34,104 bases of DNA from Patescibacteria group bacterium (GTDB lineage Bacteria > Patescibacteriota > Minisyncoccia > Moranbacterales > UBA2206), in NCBI GenBank assembly GCA_030837625.1, contig JAUPKF010000011.1:1-34104 (forward strand). The letters are read 5' to 3'. A model generated the notes under the pieces. The model ran no database searches and was not told the DNA's origin. It was given only the letters and a program-made list of their open reading frames with translations. The translations under genes and the position numbers were made by a program. Position 1 is the first letter of the stretch. Each line of letters opens with the position of its first letter. Below are positions 11,529-19,025 of the stretch, in pieces.

Positions 11529-14180
11529 TCATCCCAAATTCTTCAAAAGTTCTTTTTGCGTTTTTATTTTTTCCCCATACTCGACAAGCTTAATTTTATT
11601 TTGCGCAACGATAACTTTCGGCGCGCTTTCAAGAAACTTTTTGTTTTTAAGCAAGCCTTCGGTTTTGATTGCCAACGTTTCCAGGTCTTGTATTTCTTTT
11701 CGCAAACGCGCTTTCTCTTTTTCCATATCGACAAACTCGGCAACATCCAAAACTATTTCCATTTTCCTAGCCGACACCGCGATGCCCTTGGCGGACTGTC
11801 CGTCAAATTTAATTCGCGCCAGCCTTTCGATAAGTTCAATGTTTTTTACACTTTTACCATAAGCGGAAATAACCACACCCGGCGCGATACGATAACTTGA
11901 ACGCAGATTTCTTATTTTAGTGATCATTTCCTGGAGCGTTTCGAATTCTTTTTCGGCTTTTTTGTCAACCAACTTCTTATCCGCCACCGGCCACTTCTCC
12001 ACCATCAACAGCTTGTTTTTTATTCGTGAATTCGGATTCATTCGTTGATTCGAATCGGTATAAATTTTTTCCGTTACAAACGGCGCAAAAGGGTGGGATA
12101 ATTTAAGTACATACCCGAGTACGTACCCGAGTACGTTCCAATTTCTTTCAACCTTGCTGGTTTCCACATACCAATCCGCCAAATCGTTCCAAATAAAATT
12201 TTGCAGCTTTTCGCCAGCCAGAGAAAATCTGTAACTATCCAAATCGTCAGTAACCTCTTTTATCAAAATATTAAGCCGACTCACAATCCACCTGTCCGCG
12301 AGAGTTTTTATATTTCTTCTATCCAACTTATCAACCAGCTTAAAATCAGGGCAAGCCGTCACCGCGTAGCGGTATATATTCCAAAGCTTCGTCACAAAGT
12401 TTCTGAAACTGGAGATTTTATCTTCCGACAATCGCATATCGTTTCCCGTGGTGGAACCGACAAGAAGCGACAACCTCACCGCGTCGGTCCCGAAAAGATT
12501 AATCATATCAACCGGATTGATCCCATTGCCCTTGGATTTGGACATTTTTTTGCCGAATTTATCCAAGACCATTCCATGGAGATAAACATTTTCAAAAGGA
12601 ACTTCCCCCGTCGCGAAAAGCGACATCATAATCATCCGCGATACCCAAAGCGTGATAATTTCATAACCCGTTTCCAAAACTTGCGTCGGATGAAACTTTT
12701 TGAGATCTCCCGATTTTTTATTTTTCTTAAAATTATCAGGCCAGCCTAAGGTCGAAAACGTCCACATTCCCGAACTGAACCAAGTATCCAGCGTATCCTG
12801 ATCTTGCACCCACCCTTTGCCTTTTGGAGGATTTACCCCCACATAAATCTCCCCCTCGCTTCGCGTTCCACATTCCACGTTCCGCGTTTTATACCAAACC
12901 GGAATTTCATGCCCGAACCAAATTTGCCGGCTGATGCACCAGTCATGCAGGTTCTCCATCCAGTCGGTATAACGCTTGGTAAAACGAAAGGGAATAAACT
13001 TGATTTTCTTTTTCCTGGCGACTTCCAGCGCTTTTTCCTTGAGAGATTTGTTTCCCAGCCTTTTTATCTTTTTATCCACCGCCACAAACCACTGCTTGGA
13101 AGGAAGCGGCTCGATGGCAGTTCCGCAACGGTAACAAACCGAAAGGTTATTGTTTATTTCTTCTTCTTTCTCCAAAAGGTTTCGATTTTTGAGTTCCGCG
13201 ACAATCATTTCCCGCGCTTCCAGCGCCGTTTTTCCGGAAAATTTTCCAAACCCCGAACGAATGTTTCCGTCTTCATCGATTACTTTCATAATATTGAGCT
13301 TGTTCTCCTCGGCCATCTTCCAGTCCGCCATCGAGTGAGCCGGCGTCACGCCCAGCGCTCCGGTTCCAAAATCCTTGTCCACCTCCCGATCGGAAAATAC
13401 TTTTATGAGAAGCTGGGTTCCCAAAAAATCAGCCTCGAAAATTTCTCCAACGAACTTCGCGTATCTTTTGTCTTTCGGGTTGACCGCCACCGCCGTATCG
13501 CCCAGTTTCGTTTCCGGCCTCGTTGTCGCGATGGAAATTGGAAAATTCTTGTCATATTTGAACGTATATAATTTCGTTTTTTGCTCTTGGTATTCCAGCT
13601 CGTCGTCAGCCAATGTGGACTTGCATCTCGGACACCAATTCACTATTCTCTCTCCCCGATAGATCACGCCTTCTTTATACATATCCACAAACATTTTCGC
13701 CACCGCTTTTTTTCTCGCCTCGTCCAGAGTAAAAGCTTCCCGCGACCAATCCAATGACGCGCCCATTTTTCGAGTTTGGCTGAGAATCGTCGCTTGGGTA
13801 GTCTTGAGAAACTTCCAAACTTCTTTCAAAAATTTTTCTTTCCCCAAATCCTGGCGCTTGAGTCCTTTTTCTTTCAATAACTTTTTCTCTACAACGTTTT
13901 GCGTGGCAATGGCCGCGTGATCCGTCCCGGGAATCCAAAGCGTCCGGTATCCTTTCATCCTGTGGAACCGGATCAAAAGATCCTCGATCGCCAGCATCGA
14001 CGAATGGCCCAAGTGAAGTTTGTCGGTAATGTTGGGCGGCGGAAGAACAATCGTATAGGATTTCGCGTTTTTTGGCAATTTCAGATTATCAGGATTAAAA
14101 AACCCGCTCTTTTCCCAAGCGTCATAAATCTCATCCTCGTATTTATTCGGTTCGTAAGTTTTTGGTATTTCCTTTTTCAT
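11529..14180 (-). CDS. valS: Valyl-tRNA synthetase
   Basis: Class I aminoacyl-tRNA synthetase that charges tRNA-Val in the cytoplasm; 883 residues, normal for the family. The N-terminal Rossmann core has the HIGH-type motif (PNITDKLHLGHSSMLA, about residues 50-62). The CP1 editing domain contains TTRPETKLGDTAVAVNP, a zinc-type CPRC and CYRCGT follow, then LDTWFSSGMWTFSTLGWP and the KMSKS loop (GKKMSKSKGNGINPVD). A C-terminal coiled coil is typical of ValRS. Three anomalies appear in frame: a half ATTCG palindromic repeat at about residues 708-722, a 12-nt tandem duplication giving VLGYVLGY at about 684-691, and an extra segment near 431-441. It probably shares an operon with the PheRS gene upstream. 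No clear Shine-Dalgarno sequence. Confidence 0.97.
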   Translation of the reverse strand: MKKEIPKTYEPNKYEDEIYDAWEKSGFFNPDNLKLPKNAKSYTIVLPPPNITDKLHLGHSSMLAIEDLLIRFHRMKGYRTLWIPGTDHAAIATQNVVEKKLLKEKGLKRQDLGKEKFLKEVWKFLKTTQATILSQTRKMGASLDWSREAFTLDEARKKAVAKMFVDMYKEGVIYRGERIVNWCPRCKSTLADDELEYQEQKTKLYTFKYDKNFPISIATTRPETKLGDTAVAVNPKDKRYAKFVGEIFEADFLGTQLLIKVFSDREVDKDFGTGALGVTPAHSMADWKMAEENKLNIMKVIDEDGNIRSGFGKFSGKTALEAREMIVAELKNRNLLEKEEEINNNLSVCYRCGTAIEPLPSKQWFVAVDKKIKRLGNKSLKEKALEVARKKKIKFIPFRFTKRYTDWMENLHDWCISRQIWFGHEIPVWYKTRNVECGTRSEGEIYVGVNPPKGKGWVQDQDTLDTWFSSGMWTFSTLGWPDNFKKNKKSGDLKKFHPTQVLETGYEIITLWVSRMIMMSLFATGEVPFENVYLHGMVLDKFGKKMSKSKGNGINPVDMINLFGTDAVRLSLLVGSTTGNDMRLSEDKISSFRNFVTKLWNIYRYAVTACPDFKLVDKLDRRNIKTLADRWIVSRLNILIKEVTDDLDSYRFSLAGEKLQNFIWNDLADWYVETSKVERNWNVLGYVLGYVLKLSHPFAPFVTEKIYTDSNQRMNPNSRIKNKLLMVEKWPVADKKLVDKKAEKEFETLQEMITKIRNLRSSYRIAPGVVISAYGKSVKNIELIERLARIKFDGQSAKGIAVSARKMEIVLDVAEFVDMEKEKARLRKEIQDLETLAIKTEGLLKNKKFLESAPKVIVAQNKIKLVEYGEKIKTQKELLKNLG
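12016..12058. repeat. Half ATTCG palindromic repeat inside valS
   Basis: This segment matches the right arm of the intergenic element at 8316-8356 at about 38 of 41 positions, including TTATTCGTGAATTCG and GTTGATTCGAATCG. Here it is translated in frame as part of ValRS (about TDSNQRMNPNSRIKN) between the normal HPFAPFVTEKI and VEKWP segments. Confidence 0.85.
12107..12136. repeat. 12-nt in-frame tandem repeat in valS
   Basis: GTACATACCCGA (12107-12118) is followed by GTACGTACCCGA (12119-12130) and then GTACGT. On the coding strand this adds one extra VLGY unit before the conserved LKLSHPF segment of ValRS. The unit contains the palindrome GTACGTAC. Confidence 0.7.
12857..12889. repeat. Probable repeat-derived insert in valS
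   Basis: Internally repetitive sequence built on CGTTCCACATTCCACGTTCC. It codes for roughly RNVECGTRS between the conserved IPVWY and EIYVG segments of ValRS, where other ValRS enzymes are about nine residues shorter. It is repetitive within itself, but no second copy occurs in this window. Confidence 0.5.
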
Positions 14181-14278: not shown

Positions 14279-15424
14279 TTATCTCAACAAAGCGCCCAAC
14301 TCTTTTTCGGTTTTTGCGCGGATTTTTTCCTGAATTTCATTGATTTCTTCGTTGGTCAAAGTTCTTTCGGATGAACGATAAACGATGCGGAAAGTATAGC
14401 TTTTTTTATCCTTGCCGAACTTTTCCTCATTTTCATATTCATCCAAAAGTTTTACCTCCTCAATCAGATTATCCGCATAATCCCGGACAATTTCATAATA
14501 ATTATTCAAACTTACATCCTTGTTGATAATAAACGAGATATCCCTGATGGTTGCTGGGAATTTGCTAACTTCTTTGAATTTGCTGTTAATATCTTTAAAT
14601 TGACTTGTAATTCTTTCGTCATTCGACCAAAAAACCCTAATGTCGGGTATTTCGAACTTTACCATAGCCAATCTTTCAATTCCAATTCCAAAAGCCCAAC
14701 CATTGTAAATTTCAGGATCCAGTCCTAAGTTTTTTAAAACCTGCGCATGCACCAAACCACTGCCTAAAACCTCTAACCAATCGCCATTAAATTTAATCTC
14801 AATTTGTATTGATGGATCTGTGAATGGAAAAGAATCAACTAAAAATCTATATTCCACATCTTCACCGAAAATACTTTTTGTCATTTCAATTTCCACTTCT
14901 TTCAAATCATCCAGCGTAATTATTTTTTTGTCTTTTTTGCAAATCAACAGCCCGTCAATTTGGTGAAATGCTGGAAAATGCTTCCTATCTATCTCATCCT
15001 TTCTATAAACTAATCCCGGAGCCAATGCCATAACCTGCCCCGCTTTTTCCAATTCCTGCAAAACTCCCTCTTCTCTAAAATAAAACGGCCACATCACTGT
15101 CATTTGTGTTCTCAAATGATTAGTCTCATCGATAAAAAATGTGTCAGTTTCTTTGCGTGTTGGATGTTCTGCTGGAGAATTTAATGTGTCAAACTCATCT
15201 TTTACAGTCACGATCTTTGGCATTTCAATCAAATCAAAATCTTTAAATCTTGGGAGATCCAAGATACGATCAACTAAAATCTTTATGGGCGAATTTTCTT
15301 TTTTTGTAAGATCGGGCAAAGCCAAGAGCCTTTTTATACGCTCTGCTTTTACATCACTCCTTTTATTTAATTCATCCAACAATCTTTTTTCGCTCTTGTC
15401 CTCTTCGATAACAATCCTTCTCAT
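14279..15424 (-). CDS. Single-chain phenylalanyl-tRNA synthetase (PheS catalytic core + FDX-ACB domain)
   Basis: Charges tRNA-Phe. Of 381 residues, about 60-285 form the class II PheS catalytic core: AEHPTRKETDTFFID, LRTQMT, a motif-2-like GLVYRKDEIDRKHFPAFHQIDG, FPFTDPSIQIEI, LEVLGSGLVHAQVLKNLG and the motif-3 helix FGIGIERLAMVKFEIPDIR. Residues about 290-381 are an FDX-ACB anticodon-binding domain (FPATIRDISFIINKD, LLDEYENEEKFG, YTFRIVYRSSERTLTNEEI). In ordinary bacteria that domain belongs to PheT, not PheS; the combination in one chain is known from mitochondrial PheRS. The usual N-terminal coiled coil is short. An EMAP-type domain gene precedes it by 15 bp. No full PheT gene is in the window, though one could lie elsewhere. 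No Shine-Dalgarno sequence. Confidence 0.93.
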   Translation of the reverse strand: MRRIVIEEDKSEKRLLDELNKRSDVKAERIKRLLALPDLTKKENSPIKILVDRILDLPRFKDFDLIEMPKIVTVKDEFDTLNSPAEHPTRKETDTFFIDETNHLRTQMTVMWPFYFREEGVLQELEKAGQVMALAPGLVYRKDEIDRKHFPAFHQIDGLLICKKDKKIITLDDLKEVEIEMTKSIFGEDVEYRFLVDSFPFTDPSIQIEIKFNGDWLEVLGSGLVHAQVLKNLGLDPEIYNGWAFGIGIERLAMVKFEIPDIRVFWSNDERITSQFKDINSKFKEVSKFPATIRDISFIINKDVSLNNYYEIVRDYADNLIEEVKLLDEYENEEKFGKDKKSYTFRIVYRSSERTLTNEEINEIQEKIRAKTEKELGALLR

Positions 15425-15439
15425 AATTTTGTCAACTAT

Positions 15440-15853
15440 TTATATCGAATTAATATATTTCGCAAACTCCATCCCAATTTCGGCTTTTTCATCCAAAATC
15501 ATAATTCCGCTATGGTCATTTCCCAAACCCAACTCGTCTTCGGCGCAAAGCATCCCGAAAGACTTTTCGCCGCGAATCTCCGCTTCTTTAATTTCCAGAC
15601 CATTCGGCAATTTCGCTCCAATTAACGCGACAGGAACTTTTTGACCGACTTCAATATTCGGCGCTCCGCAGACGATATGAATAATCCCCTTCTTACTTTC
15701 CCTCTCGCCCGTACTCGGGAGAGAGGGCAATATTGCAGAATGTCCGACATCAACCTTGACCAACTGCAATTTATCCGCGTTCGGATGCTTTTCGATTTCC
15801 AAAATCTTCCCAACAACAATATTTTCCAAGTCGTTTATTTTCTGTTCCAGCAT
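15440..15853 (-). CDS. Stand-alone tRNA-binding (EMAP/PheT-B1-like) domain protein
   Basis: A 137-residue protein consisting of one OB-fold tRNA-binding domain (EMAP/B1 type). Conserved stretches are VVGKILEIEKHPNADKLQLV, IVCGAPNIEVGQKVPVALIG, LPNGLEIKEAEIRGEKSFGM and LCAEDELGLG; this order is that of the N-terminal B1 domain of bacterial PheT. It lies 15 bp upstream of the single-chain PheRS gene and 4 bp downstream of a 79-residue gene, so it is probably co-transcribed. Inference: it acts in trans as a tRNA-binding helper of PheRS. Residues about 41-56 are an insertion encoded by a near-perfect palindrome (15700-15727) that breaks the usual VDVG...IVCGAP spacing. It could also be a general tRNA-binding protein like Trbp111. 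Confidence 0.88.
   Translation of the reverse strand: MLEQKINDLENIVVGKILEIEKHPNADKLQLVKVDVGHSAILPSLPSTGERESKKGIIHIVCGAPNIEVGQKVPVALIGAKLPNGLEIKEAEIRGEKSFGMLCAEDELGLGNDHSGIMILDEKAEIGMEFAKYINSI
15700..15727. repeat. Palindromic insertion inside the EMAP-domain gene
   Basis: CCCTCTC (15700-15706) pairs with GAGAGGG (15721-15727); after one G-A mismatch, CCCG pairs with CGGG around a TACT loop. The 28-nt palindrome is translated in frame as part of ILPSLPSTGERES, which is extra relative to PheT-B1/EMAP domains. Confidence 0.75.
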
Positions 15854-15857
15854 AATC

Positions 15858-16097
15858 TTAAAATCCTAGTTTCTCTTTTGCCATTCTATACTGTTCTTCG
15901 CTTATCTGTCCGCCTTTTCGCATCATTTCCATCGCCGACAAAAGCTTGCCCTTGTTTTTCGGATTAAACGCTTCGCGCGCCATCTTTTCCCGTTCTTTCG
16001 GCGACATATTCTTAATTTTTTTCTCGGCAATCTTGGCCATCATTCCCATGGCCGCATTACTAACTCCGGATTTCGCTTTTTTGAAAGGATTCCACAT
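15858..16097 (-). CDS. Small basic protein, unknown function (79 aa)
   Basis: A 79-residue basic protein starting MWNPFKKAKSGVSNAAMG. It is helical, with a KNMSPKEREKMAREAFNPKN stretch and a C-terminal part (GGQISEEQYRMAKEKLGF) that resembles the short-C-terminal-domain/SHOCT-like pattern of a helical hairpin ending in a hydrophobic residue; this resemblance is weak. It stops 4 bp before the EMAP-domain gene, so it is probably the first gene of that operon. No membrane segment. Function unknown. Confidence 0.72.
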   Translation of the reverse strand: MWNPFKKAKSGVSNAAMGMMAKIAEKKIKNMSPKEREKMAREAFNPKNKGKLLSAMEMMRKGGQISEEQYRMAKEKLGF

Positions 16098-16182: not shown

Positions 16183-17076
16183 CTACCTGCTTTGTAAATT
16201 ATAACTCGTTACCAACAGCGCCGAAGCAATGAATATTGATGAATACGTTCCAAACGTCACGCCAATGAGAAGCGCCAGGGAAAAATCTTTTATGGATTCG
16301 CCGCCAAAGATATACACTGCCAGAAGCGTGATGATAACCGTGAGGGAAGTGTTGATCGAGCGCACCAGCGTTTCGTTAAGACTCCGATTAACCACTTCCG
16401 GAAACTTTTCCTTGGCGGAACCGCGGAGCAAGTTTTCCCGCGTCCGGTCATAAACCACAATGGTATCATGGACGGAAAAACCCAAAATAGTCAAGAGCGC
16501 CGCCACAAAAGGAATTCCAACTTCCACGCCATAAAAACGCCCCAGCACGGAAAAAACTCCGACAGTAATGAGGATGTCATGAATAAGCGCGATCACCGCG
16601 CCGGCGCCGTATTTCCAGGATTCCACCGGTCGGGAAACCTTGCGGAATGCCCAAGCGATATACACCATAATTCCGGCTACCGCGAAAAAAATCGCCCACA
16701 AGGAATTCTTTTTCAAATCTTGGGAAACGGTGGAGTTGATAAAATCCACCCGAAGCCGCTGTATGCCGGCATATTTTCCTTCCAGCGCCTCAAAGACTTT
16801 CTGATTCAACGCGTCGTCTTCCGAAGCGTAACGGACAAGCATGCCTTGATTTTGAGCCGGCTGCAAAGTGAGGCTTCCTAAATTCAAATCGCGAAGAGCG
16901 TCTTCAGCTTCCGAAACATTCGGAGCGGACTCGGGAAATCTGACTTCCAAAAGCGTCCCGCCCGTAAAATCAATGCCAAACTTCAAGCCCCAAACGAACA
17001 GGCTCAATACGCTCAATGCTGTTAAGGTAATTGAGAAAATATAGGCGTATTTGGTTTTAGAGATGATGTTAATCAT
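16183..17076 (-). CDS. secF: Protein translocase subunit SecF
   Basis: 297-residue RND-type membrane protein that, with SecD, uses proton-motive force to help pull proteins out of SecYEG. Six membrane helices are visible; helix 1 is followed by FGIDFTGGTLLEVRFP, the diagnostic SecF motif. The extracytoplasmic head comes next, then helices 2-6 with VALLTILGFSVHDTIVVYDRTREN and SINTSLTVIITLLAVYIFGG. It lies downstream of secD as expected, but the two are separated by 266 bp of nested repeat elements. No Shine-Dalgarno sequence. Confidence 0.96.
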   Translation of the reverse strand: MINIISKTKYAYIFSITLTALSVLSLFVWGLKFGIDFTGGTLLEVRFPESAPNVSEAEDALRDLNLGSLTLQPAQNQGMLVRYASEDDALNQKVFEALEGKYAGIQRLRVDFINSTVSQDLKKNSLWAIFFAVAGIMVYIAWAFRKVSRPVESWKYGAGAVIALIHDILITVGVFSVLGRFYGVEVGIPFVAALLTILGFSVHDTIVVYDRTRENLLRGSAKEKFPEVVNRSLNETLVRSINTSLTVIITLLAVYIFGGESIKDFSLALLIGVTFGTYSSIFIASALLVTSYNLQSR

Positions 17077-17342: not shown

Positions 17343-19025
17343 TTATTTTTCTTTAACTCCGATTAAGTATTTTTTTCTTTCCAACCACTCTCCCGCCACG
17401 AACCGCAAAATCGTCCGGGTGATGACAACCGCTGTGAACATCGAAACCAGAACTCCCAAAATCAAAGTAACGGCGAAACCTTTCACAAACCCTGTGCCCA
17501 TTTCCGTCAAAATCAAAGCGGTGATTATCGACGAAACGTTGCTGTCGCGAATCGACGTCCAGGCGCGTTTGAATCCTTCATCAATCGCCGCCAAAGCGTG
17601 CCGGCCATTTCTGATTTCTTCCTTGGTCCGCTCAAAAATCAAAATATTGGCATCCACCGCCATGCCGATGGAAAGAATGAAGCCGGCAATTCCGGAAAGA
17701 GTCAGGGTTATCTGCCAAGGAGAAAAAACGGAAAATTTGAAAAGGGTGACCATCAAGCCGGTATAGATAAGCAAAGTAAACGAAGCGATAAGTCCCAGAA
17801 AACGATAATACAAAATCATAAACGCGATAACCAGCAAAAGTCCGACTGCGCCCGCTTTCAAGCTTGTTTCCAATGATGCCTGACCGAGCGACGCCTCCAC
17901 GGATTGTTGGGAAATTAAAGTAATCGGCACCGGAAGAGCGCCTTCATTGAGCCTTTTGACCAAATCCTTGGCTTCTTCGATGCTGAAATCTCCGGTGATC
18001 ACCGCCTCTCCGTTGGTTATTTCCGCCTGCACCGTCGGAGCGCTTATTATCATGTCATCCAGATAAATTGCTACTCTTTTCCCGATATTCTTTTTAGTGA
18101 TTTCCGCGAAAAGCTTGGCTCCCTCGCCGTCAAATTTGAGCGACACTTGCGGTTCTGAAAGTCCTTGGTTTTGAAAAGCCACCTCGGCCGTCTCAAGATT
18201 CTTCCCGGTCAAGCCAGTGGAAACGAAGTTCATTTGCGGTTCCGGCTGGGTTTTCTTGGCAATCAAAATGTGCGCGCTTTTAAACTCTTGGCTGCCGTCT
18301 ATCTCTCGCACCTCTATTCTTTTTATAATGTGCCAGCCAAAAGTCGTCTCCACCAATTCCGGAAAAATTTGCCCATCACCAAGACCCTTGTCGAAAATTA
18401 CCGCTTCGTACTCCGGCACGAAGGATCCTTTTTTCTGAAAATCATATTCTCCGCCGTTATCTTTCGAGCCCGGATCTTCGCTATTATCTTTAGCTAACTG
18501 GGCGAAATCTTCCCCGGCCAGCGCTTTTTTCAAAATATCTTCCGCTTTCACTTTTGCCTGCGCGTTCATATCGTCCAAAATATCCTGCGGAATTTGCTGG
18601 GATTCATCAGTCCCGCCGCCCTCCTCCTTGAATTCCAAAAAGGGCGTTTCTTTGATCAAGCTTTTCGCCTCCTCGATATCCTTTACTCCCGCCAGCTCGA
18701 CTACCAGTCTTTGCTCCGAGCCGGATCTGGTCGTATAAATCACCGGCTCCGCCACGCCAAAAGCGTTCACCCGCCGCTCAATCACATCCTGCACCGCTTG
18801 CATCGCGTCGCCGACTTGATTGGATTCAACCTGACTCACATCCGCCCGGTACTCCAAATGAATACCGCCCTGCAAATCCAGTCCCAGGTTGATTTTCAGC
18901 TTATTCAGAGTATCATAAAGAAAAGGCGCCCGCACCGTCGCCTGCGGATAGGAAACCAGACCGACAAACACGGCCAAAATAATAATGAGAGTAAATTTTA
19001 TCTGAAGCTTCCTCTTGAGAATCAT
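17343..19025 (-). CDS. secD: Protein translocase subunit SecD with embedded parvulin-like region
   Basis: 560 residues. Helix 1 at about 10-27 is followed by INLGLDLQGGIHLEYR, the SecD signature, and the P1 head. The membrane part has LKAGAVGLLLVIAFMILYYR, IGMAVDANILIFERTKEEI and the final RND helices. Between about residues 150 and 258, within the periplasmic head, there is extra sequence resembling a PpiC/parvulin prolyl isomerase: KAEDILKKALAGEDFAQLAK, SEDPGSKDNGGEYDF, FVPEYEAVIFDKGLGDGQI, TFGWHIIKRIE and then SAHILIAKK. The HILI strand, normally first in parvulins, comes last here, suggesting circular permutation. SecD pulls translocating proteins outward, so a folding domain there is plausible. 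Core assignment is firm. Confidence 0.95.
   Translation of the reverse strand: MILKRKLQIKFTLIIILAVFVGLVSYPQATVRAPFLYDTLNKLKINLGLDLQGGIHLEYRADVSQVESNQVGDAMQAVQDVIERRVNAFGVAEPVIYTTRSGSEQRLVVELAGVKDIEEAKSLIKETPFLEFKEEGGGTDESQQIPQDILDDMNAQAKVKAEDILKKALAGEDFAQLAKDNSEDPGSKDNGGEYDFQKKGSFVPEYEAVIFDKGLGDGQIFPELVETTFGWHIIKRIEVREIDGSQEFKSAHILIAKKTQPEPQMNFVSTGLTGKNLETAEVAFQNQGLSEPQVSLKFDGEGAKLFAEITKKNIGKRVAIYLDDMIISAPTVQAEITNGEAVITGDFSIEEAKDLVKRLNEGALPVPITLISQQSVEASLGQASLETSLKAGAVGLLLVIAFMILYYRFLGLIASFTLLIYTGLMVTLFKFSVFSPWQITLTLSGIAGFILSIGMAVDANILIFERTKEEIRNGRHALAAIDEGFKRAWTSIRDSNVSSIITALILTEMGTGFVKGFAVTLILGVLVSMFTAVVITRTILRFVAGEWLERKKYLIGVKEK

Follow-up and report, generated by a model that had tools for sequence, protein, structure and literature searches.

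Textbooks describe the phenylalanyl-tRNA synthetase (PheRS) of bacteria as a four-chain enzyme that proofreads Tyr, the one-piece form being reserved for organelles. In the mitochondrial enzyme, Phe is activated on the catalytic core and the tRNA is brought in by a swinging FDX-ACB domain. Human FARS2 (PheRS-M; PDB 3cmq and 5mgw) is accordingly one chain in which a PheS-type core is followed by a C-terminal FDX-ACB domain, without an editing domain, whereas heterotetrameric PheRS is marked by the B5 and B3/4 domains of its PheT subunit. Another single-chain relative of PheS is SrmL (NF051887), and free OB-fold proteins resembling a part of PheT are known as YtpR or TapR-type tRNA-binding proteins, kin to the PheT N-terminus. 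According to passages of PMC5370408, the RNA-binding OB fold of PheT is its B2 domain, which is missing from many PheTs of CPR bacteria and has been reused there as a separate RNA-binding module in B2-TyrRS and B2-LysRS fusions. In the excerpts of the literature that were searched, no report of a single-chain PheRS in Patescibacteria was found.

A single-chain PheRS in the pheST slot

The window, by which we mean the whole 34,104-nucleotide stretch analysed (contig JAUPKF010000011.1 of assembly GCA_030837625.1, a Patescibacteria group bacterium of the Moranbacterales), is contig C27 of a 967 kb draft genome of 31 contigs that is 98.51% complete. Two genes on its minus strand, encoding proteins of 137 and 381 amino acids and separated by 15 bp, occupy a position between secF and valS (Table 1). 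As originally predicted, the 381-residue protein joins a PheS catalytic core (tRNA-synt_2d, residues 39–276, E 4.6e-56) to an FDX-ACB domain (residues 287–381, E 5.1e-26) in the order found in mitochondrial PheRS. The mitochondrial layout was also supported by an AlphaFold2 model (mean pLDDT 92.7; 33 sequences), whose best structural match was human mitochondrial PheRS, aligned through both domains (Z 38.5, rmsd 2.6, 351 residues) with 34% identity, whereas bacterial PheS could be superimposed on the core only (Z 27.1, rmsd 1.6, 220 residues). With the NCBIfam model TIGR00469 (pheS_mito) the enzyme scored 257.4 bits, just under the cut-off of 258.35. It thus has the PheRS-M architecture, but differs from FARS2 in being encoded on a bacterial chromosome as the sole PheRS, and from PheS/PheT, with which it shares a homologous core and FDX-ACB, in having neither the B3/B4 editing domain, nor B5, nor the catalytic-like half of PheT.

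Table 1. Coordinates in the window of the single-chain PheRS, the free B2 gene and the neighbouring syntenic markers (columns: feature, coordinates, strand, basis)
Single-chain phenylalanyl-tRNA synthetase, 381 aa	14279..15424	-	ORF list, Pfam, NCBIfam, AlphaFold2 model
PheS-type class II catalytic core of the 381-aa enzyme	14597..15310	-	PF01409, E 7.2e-57 (genome search)
FDX-ACB (anticodon-binding) domain of the 381-aa enzyme, residues 287–381	14282..14566	-	PF03147, E 5.1e-26
Free PheT-B2 (EMAP/OB-fold) protein, 137 aa, pheT relic	15440..15853	-	Profile matches, comparison with G401, trees
tRNA_bind (OB fold) domain of the 137-aa protein	15470..15820	-	PF01588, only copy in the genome
B2 gene start, 23 nt, matching the pheS start of congener G401 (21/23 nt; MLEQKIND)	15831..15853	-	Nucleotide comparison
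79-aa ORF, upstream, syntenic marker left of the slot	15858..16097	-	Collinearity with G401; no Pfam match
secF, syntenic marker	16183..17076	-	Collinearity with G401
secD, syntenic marker	17343..19025	-	Collinearity with G401
valS, syntenic marker right of the slot	11529..14180	-	Collinearity with G401

Most likely, Phe would be activated on the PheS-type core and the tRNA brought in by the FDX-ACB domain, as in mitochondrial PheRS, and as no B3/4 domain is present, the enzyme would have no means of clearing Tyr-tRNA-Phe in cis; both catalytic activity and the loss of Tyr proofreading are predicted from sequence. Thr109 and Trp112 of the enzyme were invariant among its relatives (24/24 and 33/33). 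A1 comprised 24 of the 27 carriers described below, L026 and L028, as partial genes, and L029, as frame-split, having been set aside. At the positions of Thr109, Trp112 and Asp157, FARS2 presumably has Ser, Gln and Glu, the alignment being ambiguous here, and the Phe pocket of the Patescibacteria enzyme is possibly altered. Asp157 was common among relatives (residue stretches 107–112 and 155–157).

A complete pheT elsewhere in the genome had been named beforehand as the finding that would overturn this picture. Profile searches of the genome returned a single PheS core over the cut-off and no complete pheT, and neither B3_4 nor B5 had a match, although each was detected in 14/14 control genomes, so that the predicted lack of an editing domain held genome-wide. 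The sample of the phylum comprised 286 genomes, and 27 of them had full-length relatives of the enzyme (E 1e-72 or better, the match of the next genome being 3e-49). None of these 27 carriers had B5, in contrast to 249 of the 259 non-carriers, and B3_4 was found in 0/27 carriers, in 7/8 B5-positive relatives and in 3/10 B5-negative non-carriers. As ten non-carriers also lacked a B5 match, absence in an HMM search can by itself mislead, owing to incomplete assemblies or divergent domains. Four genomes of family f29 (G008, G029, G047 and G064) had neither a B5 match nor the single-chain enzyme, and B3_4 was found in two of them; PheT in this family may be unusual, or may be missing from bins that are 80–85% complete. 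The best 80 of 405 named relatives were from records titled Patescibacteria or its lineages, including Moranbacteria, Staskawiczbacteria, Wolfebacteria and Yanofskybacteria, or plainly ‘bacterium’.

The configuration of the slot was defined by comparison with G401, a non-carrier of the same genus, in which the gene order is secD-secF-79aa-pheS-pheT-(203-aa ORF)-valS. In the window the order is secD-secF-79aa-B2-enzyme-valS, collinear with G401 on both sides, and the flanking proteins are 74–94% identical between the two, whereas the window enzyme and the PheS of G401 share 29% identity. The SecD-like protein of the window carries a PPIC-type rotamase domain inserted at approximately residues 153–238. 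In families f36 and f61, one non-carrier from each (G108 and G173) and ten carriers likewise share the gene order around the pheST slot, which is bounded by gyrB and a gene for a UvrD/PDDEXK helicase; the contig of G094 extends no further than the enzyme. These carriers lack pheS and have B2 and the enzyme in place of pheT, the slot of G227 being without a B2 gene. The gene orders indicate horizontal displacement in place, with the same swap in the pheST slots of these two other families. We therefore consider it probable, with good confidence, that the 381-aa protein is the only PheRS of the organism and was horizontally acquired, displacing pheST in its own slot. On this reading a Patescibacteria lineage gained the one-piece enzyme, which took over the chromosomal slot of pheST; pheS and most of pheT were deleted, and the OB-fold B2 of pheT persisted as a free gene with a pheS start.

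Origin and retention of the free B2 protein

The 137-aa protein contains a tRNA_bind domain (E 5e-19) and is the only PF01588 protein of its genome. That it is a separate, PheT-derived protein encoded 15 bp upstream of the enzyme was correctly predicted, but it aligns to PheT residues about 41–151 (3pco_B 41–151) and the domain is therefore B2, not B1 as first proposed. With the PheT model TIGR00472 it scored 139.9 bits over profile positions 41–155 of 798, below the cut-off of 402.65, as expected of a fragment. The YtpR model NF045760 gave 120.1 bits, over its cut-off of 100, with the best stretch at profile positions 108–185; at 137 aa the protein is shorter than the 185-position YtpR architecture and, unlike YtpR, is traceable to the local pheT. 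It also differs from the CPR fusions described in the passages of PMC5370408 cited above, where B2 is attached to other synthetases, in being free beside a one-piece PheRS.

The first 23 nucleotides of the B2 gene correspond to the start of G401 pheS (21/23), more closely than to the pheS starts inspected in other members of the order, and the remainder corresponds to the B2 region of G401 pheT (80% over 356 nt). The two genes have a loop insertion in common, and their dS of 0.87 is in line with the values for six flanking genes (0.72–1.67). A loop near residues 38–60 of the window B2 (15440–15853) carries differing proline-rich in-frame insertions in the PheT-B2s of the order, which resemble translated repeat elements. 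A plain local truncation of the congener PheT, favoured by the shared start, the loop insertion and the dS, was rejected on the basis of both protein and DNA tests. The protein tree placed the window B2 with the free B2s of the order (97/96) and argued against a pairing with G401 PheT (AU p 0.022), as did the DNA data (p 0.036). The tree comprised 76 rows, no B2 match having been obtained for G183 and G269, and 23 of the 76 were left out of the reduced tree and AU tests as distant or long; the free-B2 group of the order was recovered at 93/91 with all rows and at 97/96 without long rows in the protein analysis, whereas the DNA tree required two changes and one group was present in 52% of bootstrap trees.

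As the window B2 groups with the free B2s of the order and yet shares features with G401, simple local truncation can be only a part of its history, and a mosaic is proposed to reconcile the two. In a site-by-site comparison, the central segment of the gene agreed with G401 at 27/27 informative sites as against 25/66 elsewhere (permutation p 0.002, partner G409), and near its ends the gene matched mainly free B2s. The B2 gene is thus a mosaic pheT relic that begins with the first codons of pheS; an incoming cassette of B2 and enzyme may have recombined with the native pheST, so that the B2 gene would have been partly remade with sequence from other free B2 genes. The free B2s of families f36 and f61 grouped with the PheT-B2s of G108 and G173, and those of the order fell among the PheT-B2s of the order, with 100/100 between the two sets. 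This separate placement indicates that free B2 arose at least twice. In G378 and G392, the free B2 genes correspond to PheT profile positions 1–155 and 1–157 of 798, and are PheT cut off after B2.

Retention of the gene varied. In the order sample of 128 genomes, which included ten carriers, an intact B2 was adjacent to the enzyme in six carriers besides the window (G409, G373, G378, G392, G319 and G371, in the last on the opposite strand), the copy in G393 was decayed, and both G370 and G376 lacked the gene. A B2 ORF lay directly upstream of the enzyme in 17 of the 27 carriers of the phylum sample, the window included. When both samples were combined, 23 of 36 distinct carriers had an intact adjacent B2 and 12 had no B2 next to the enzyme, whether intact or decayed (the contig of G193 ends at the gene). 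Searches of the whole genomes of G370, G376, G187 and G260 with PF01588 gave no match, which leaves room for another OB cofactor. Among the best 80 of the 405 named loci, an adjacent B2 was found in three.

For pairs of free B2s with computable dS, dN/dS was 0.05–0.16, the remaining pairs being synonymous-saturated, and two pairs of PheT-B2 gave 0.12 and 0.13. The low values for free B2 indicate that the gene is maintained where present, though dispensable, and that it is under purifying selection within its group. It is doubtful, though worth bearing in mind, that the free B2 has no role and has merely been kept by chance as a relic: this would account for the decayed copy in G393, for the lack of a copy in G370 and G376, and for 77 of the best 80 of the 405 named loci having no adjacent B2, but it accords poorly with intact copies beside the enzyme in 23/36 distinct carriers, with strong purifying selection, synonymous sites being near saturation, and with at least two origins. 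Most likely, B2 would act as a tRNA-binding helper in trans, either for the 381-aa enzyme or for several synthetases.

Relation to SrmL, native PheS and the viral and mitochondrial enzymes

The closest NCBIfam model besides pheS_mito is that of SrmL, likewise a single-chain protein, and the same profiles match the 381-aa enzyme over almost its entire length. It is nevertheless very unlikely that this enzyme is a ‘mystery ligase’ of the SrmL type, or some other paralogue without tRNA-Phe charging activity, with the true PheRS having been missed. The SrmL model NF051887 gave 255.9 bits, nearly equal to the mitochondrial model, and matched 24/24 relatives of the enzyme, and SrmL rows neighboured the Patescibacteria rows in one tree (98/86). 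That score is nevertheless under the cut-off of 300, and SrmL rows form a group of their own (100/100) outside which the window enzyme falls, so that SrmL was rejected as its family. G318, moreover, has two SrmL-like ORFs in addition to a PheS, and none of the 27 carriers has B5; PheRS being essential, it would be difficult to account for 27 genomes that have no other PheRS if the protein were SrmL. The two ORFs of G318, a genome of the order, lie at L043 (G318:C70), and single SrmL-like copies were found on plasmids of Glutamicibacter and Azotobacter and in a phage record of 635 kb (L201:3016-4134, L202:2896-4008 and L203). A literature search on SrmL found no useful paper.

Trees of the enzyme were built with 50 or 20 Patescibacteria rows from 116 loci, some genomes being present twice. 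In the tree with 50, the Patescibacteria rows stood apart from the PheS rows and the ten carriers of the order occurred in four places, with the starred branches forcing four changes. Uniting these ten carriers in one clade was rejected (AU p 4.8e-05; p 0.015 without G371), and a single acquisition in the order was discarded accordingly. The window, G393 and G409 joined a Staskawiczbacteria sequence (98/96), and the window enzyme is 89% identical to that of another member of its family and 79% identical to a Staskawiczbacteria sequence. Reading the changes as gains assumes that the ancestor of the order had pheST, as 118 of its 128 members are non-carriers; the tree then implies that the enzyme entered the order at least four times. 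As carriers are scattered in the enzyme tree whereas the free B2s of the order form one clade in the protein tree, the two genes differ in history.

These results also bear on the suggestion that the locus is an evolutionary intermediate towards a monomeric PheRS, in which native PheS would have acquired the FDX-ACB of PheT by fusion, with B1 becoming detached. The right domains are indeed adjacent, and native pheST is indeed the source of the B2 gene. An enzyme made by splitting and fusing the native one should not, however, be only 29% identical to the congener (G401) PheS and 89% and 79% identical to other single-chain enzymes, nor group with Staskawiczbacteria apart from the PheS rows, nor belong to a set of ten carriers that do not form one clade. 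Fusion or fission of the native enzyme was ruled out by the trees and identities, and the intermediate reading as a whole must be regarded as highly improbable; the phrase ‘parallel route to monomeric PheRS’ may possibly still apply to the deep origin of the Patescibacteria clade only. An assembly or binning artefact, through a chimeric contig or a missing pheT contig in a draft of 31 contigs, can hardly be credited given the collinearity with G401 on both sides, the same arrangement in independent assemblies such as L056 and L058, and the anticorrelation of the enzyme and B5 across the phylum.

Single-chain PheRSs were also encoded on viral contigs of up to 533 kb (L219–L249, IMG/VR), two of the viral loci being matched by the Patescibacteria query and 29 by a second query. 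A phage terminase model matched nine of the 15 viral PheRS records tested, seven over its cut-off, and a search of ten viral records for portal proteins gave no match. Just downstream of the PheRS, two viral contigs have a CysRS-like gene (L225:4853-6181 and L228:4109-5425). Human FARS2 is 54% identical to the viral L229 (L229:3001-3942) and was placed among viral rows in two trees (98/93 and 96/88). In the viral tree, built with 21 of the 29 viral loci and 20 Patescibacteria rows, the one mitochondrial sequence fell within the 21 viral rows (96/88, 100/96) and the Patescibacteria rows stood apart (100/99). The best topology did not make the Patescibacteria enzymes sister to FARS2, which lay among phage enzymes; the alternative uniting FARS2 with the Patescibacteria clade was only borderline rejected (AU p 0.052). 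As one mitochondrial sequence was used and the trees had no archaeal outgroup, the position of FARS2 among phage enzymes is a lead and not a result.

Significance of the displacement

The phage enzymes around FARS2 provide a concrete lead on the source of mitochondrial PheRS: if the lead is true, single-chain PheRSs may pass through a phage reservoir, from which the mitochondrial synthetase could have come. A still broader scheme would define a two-piece PheRS type, consisting of a mobile one-piece enzyme and a salvaged B2 acting in trans on tRNA-Phe after at least two in-place decays of pheST, with single-chain PheRSs, including the mitochondrial ancestor, spread by way of such a reservoir; we offer it as a speculation that is rather unlikely to hold in full.

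A substantial minority within one bacterial phylum (27/286 sampled genomes) appears to rely on a one-piece PheRS, and the swap is visible in stages, namely intact pheST, B2 kept, B2 decayed and B2 gone. With these stages and carriers at hand, it becomes testable what level of fidelity a bacterial proteome can tolerate in the absence of PheRS editing and why a dispensable B2 is so often retained. Many ultra-small Patescibacteria would thus have exchanged their four-part PheRS for a mitochondrion-like one-piece enzyme, beside which part of the former enzyme frequently persists as a conserved separate protein.
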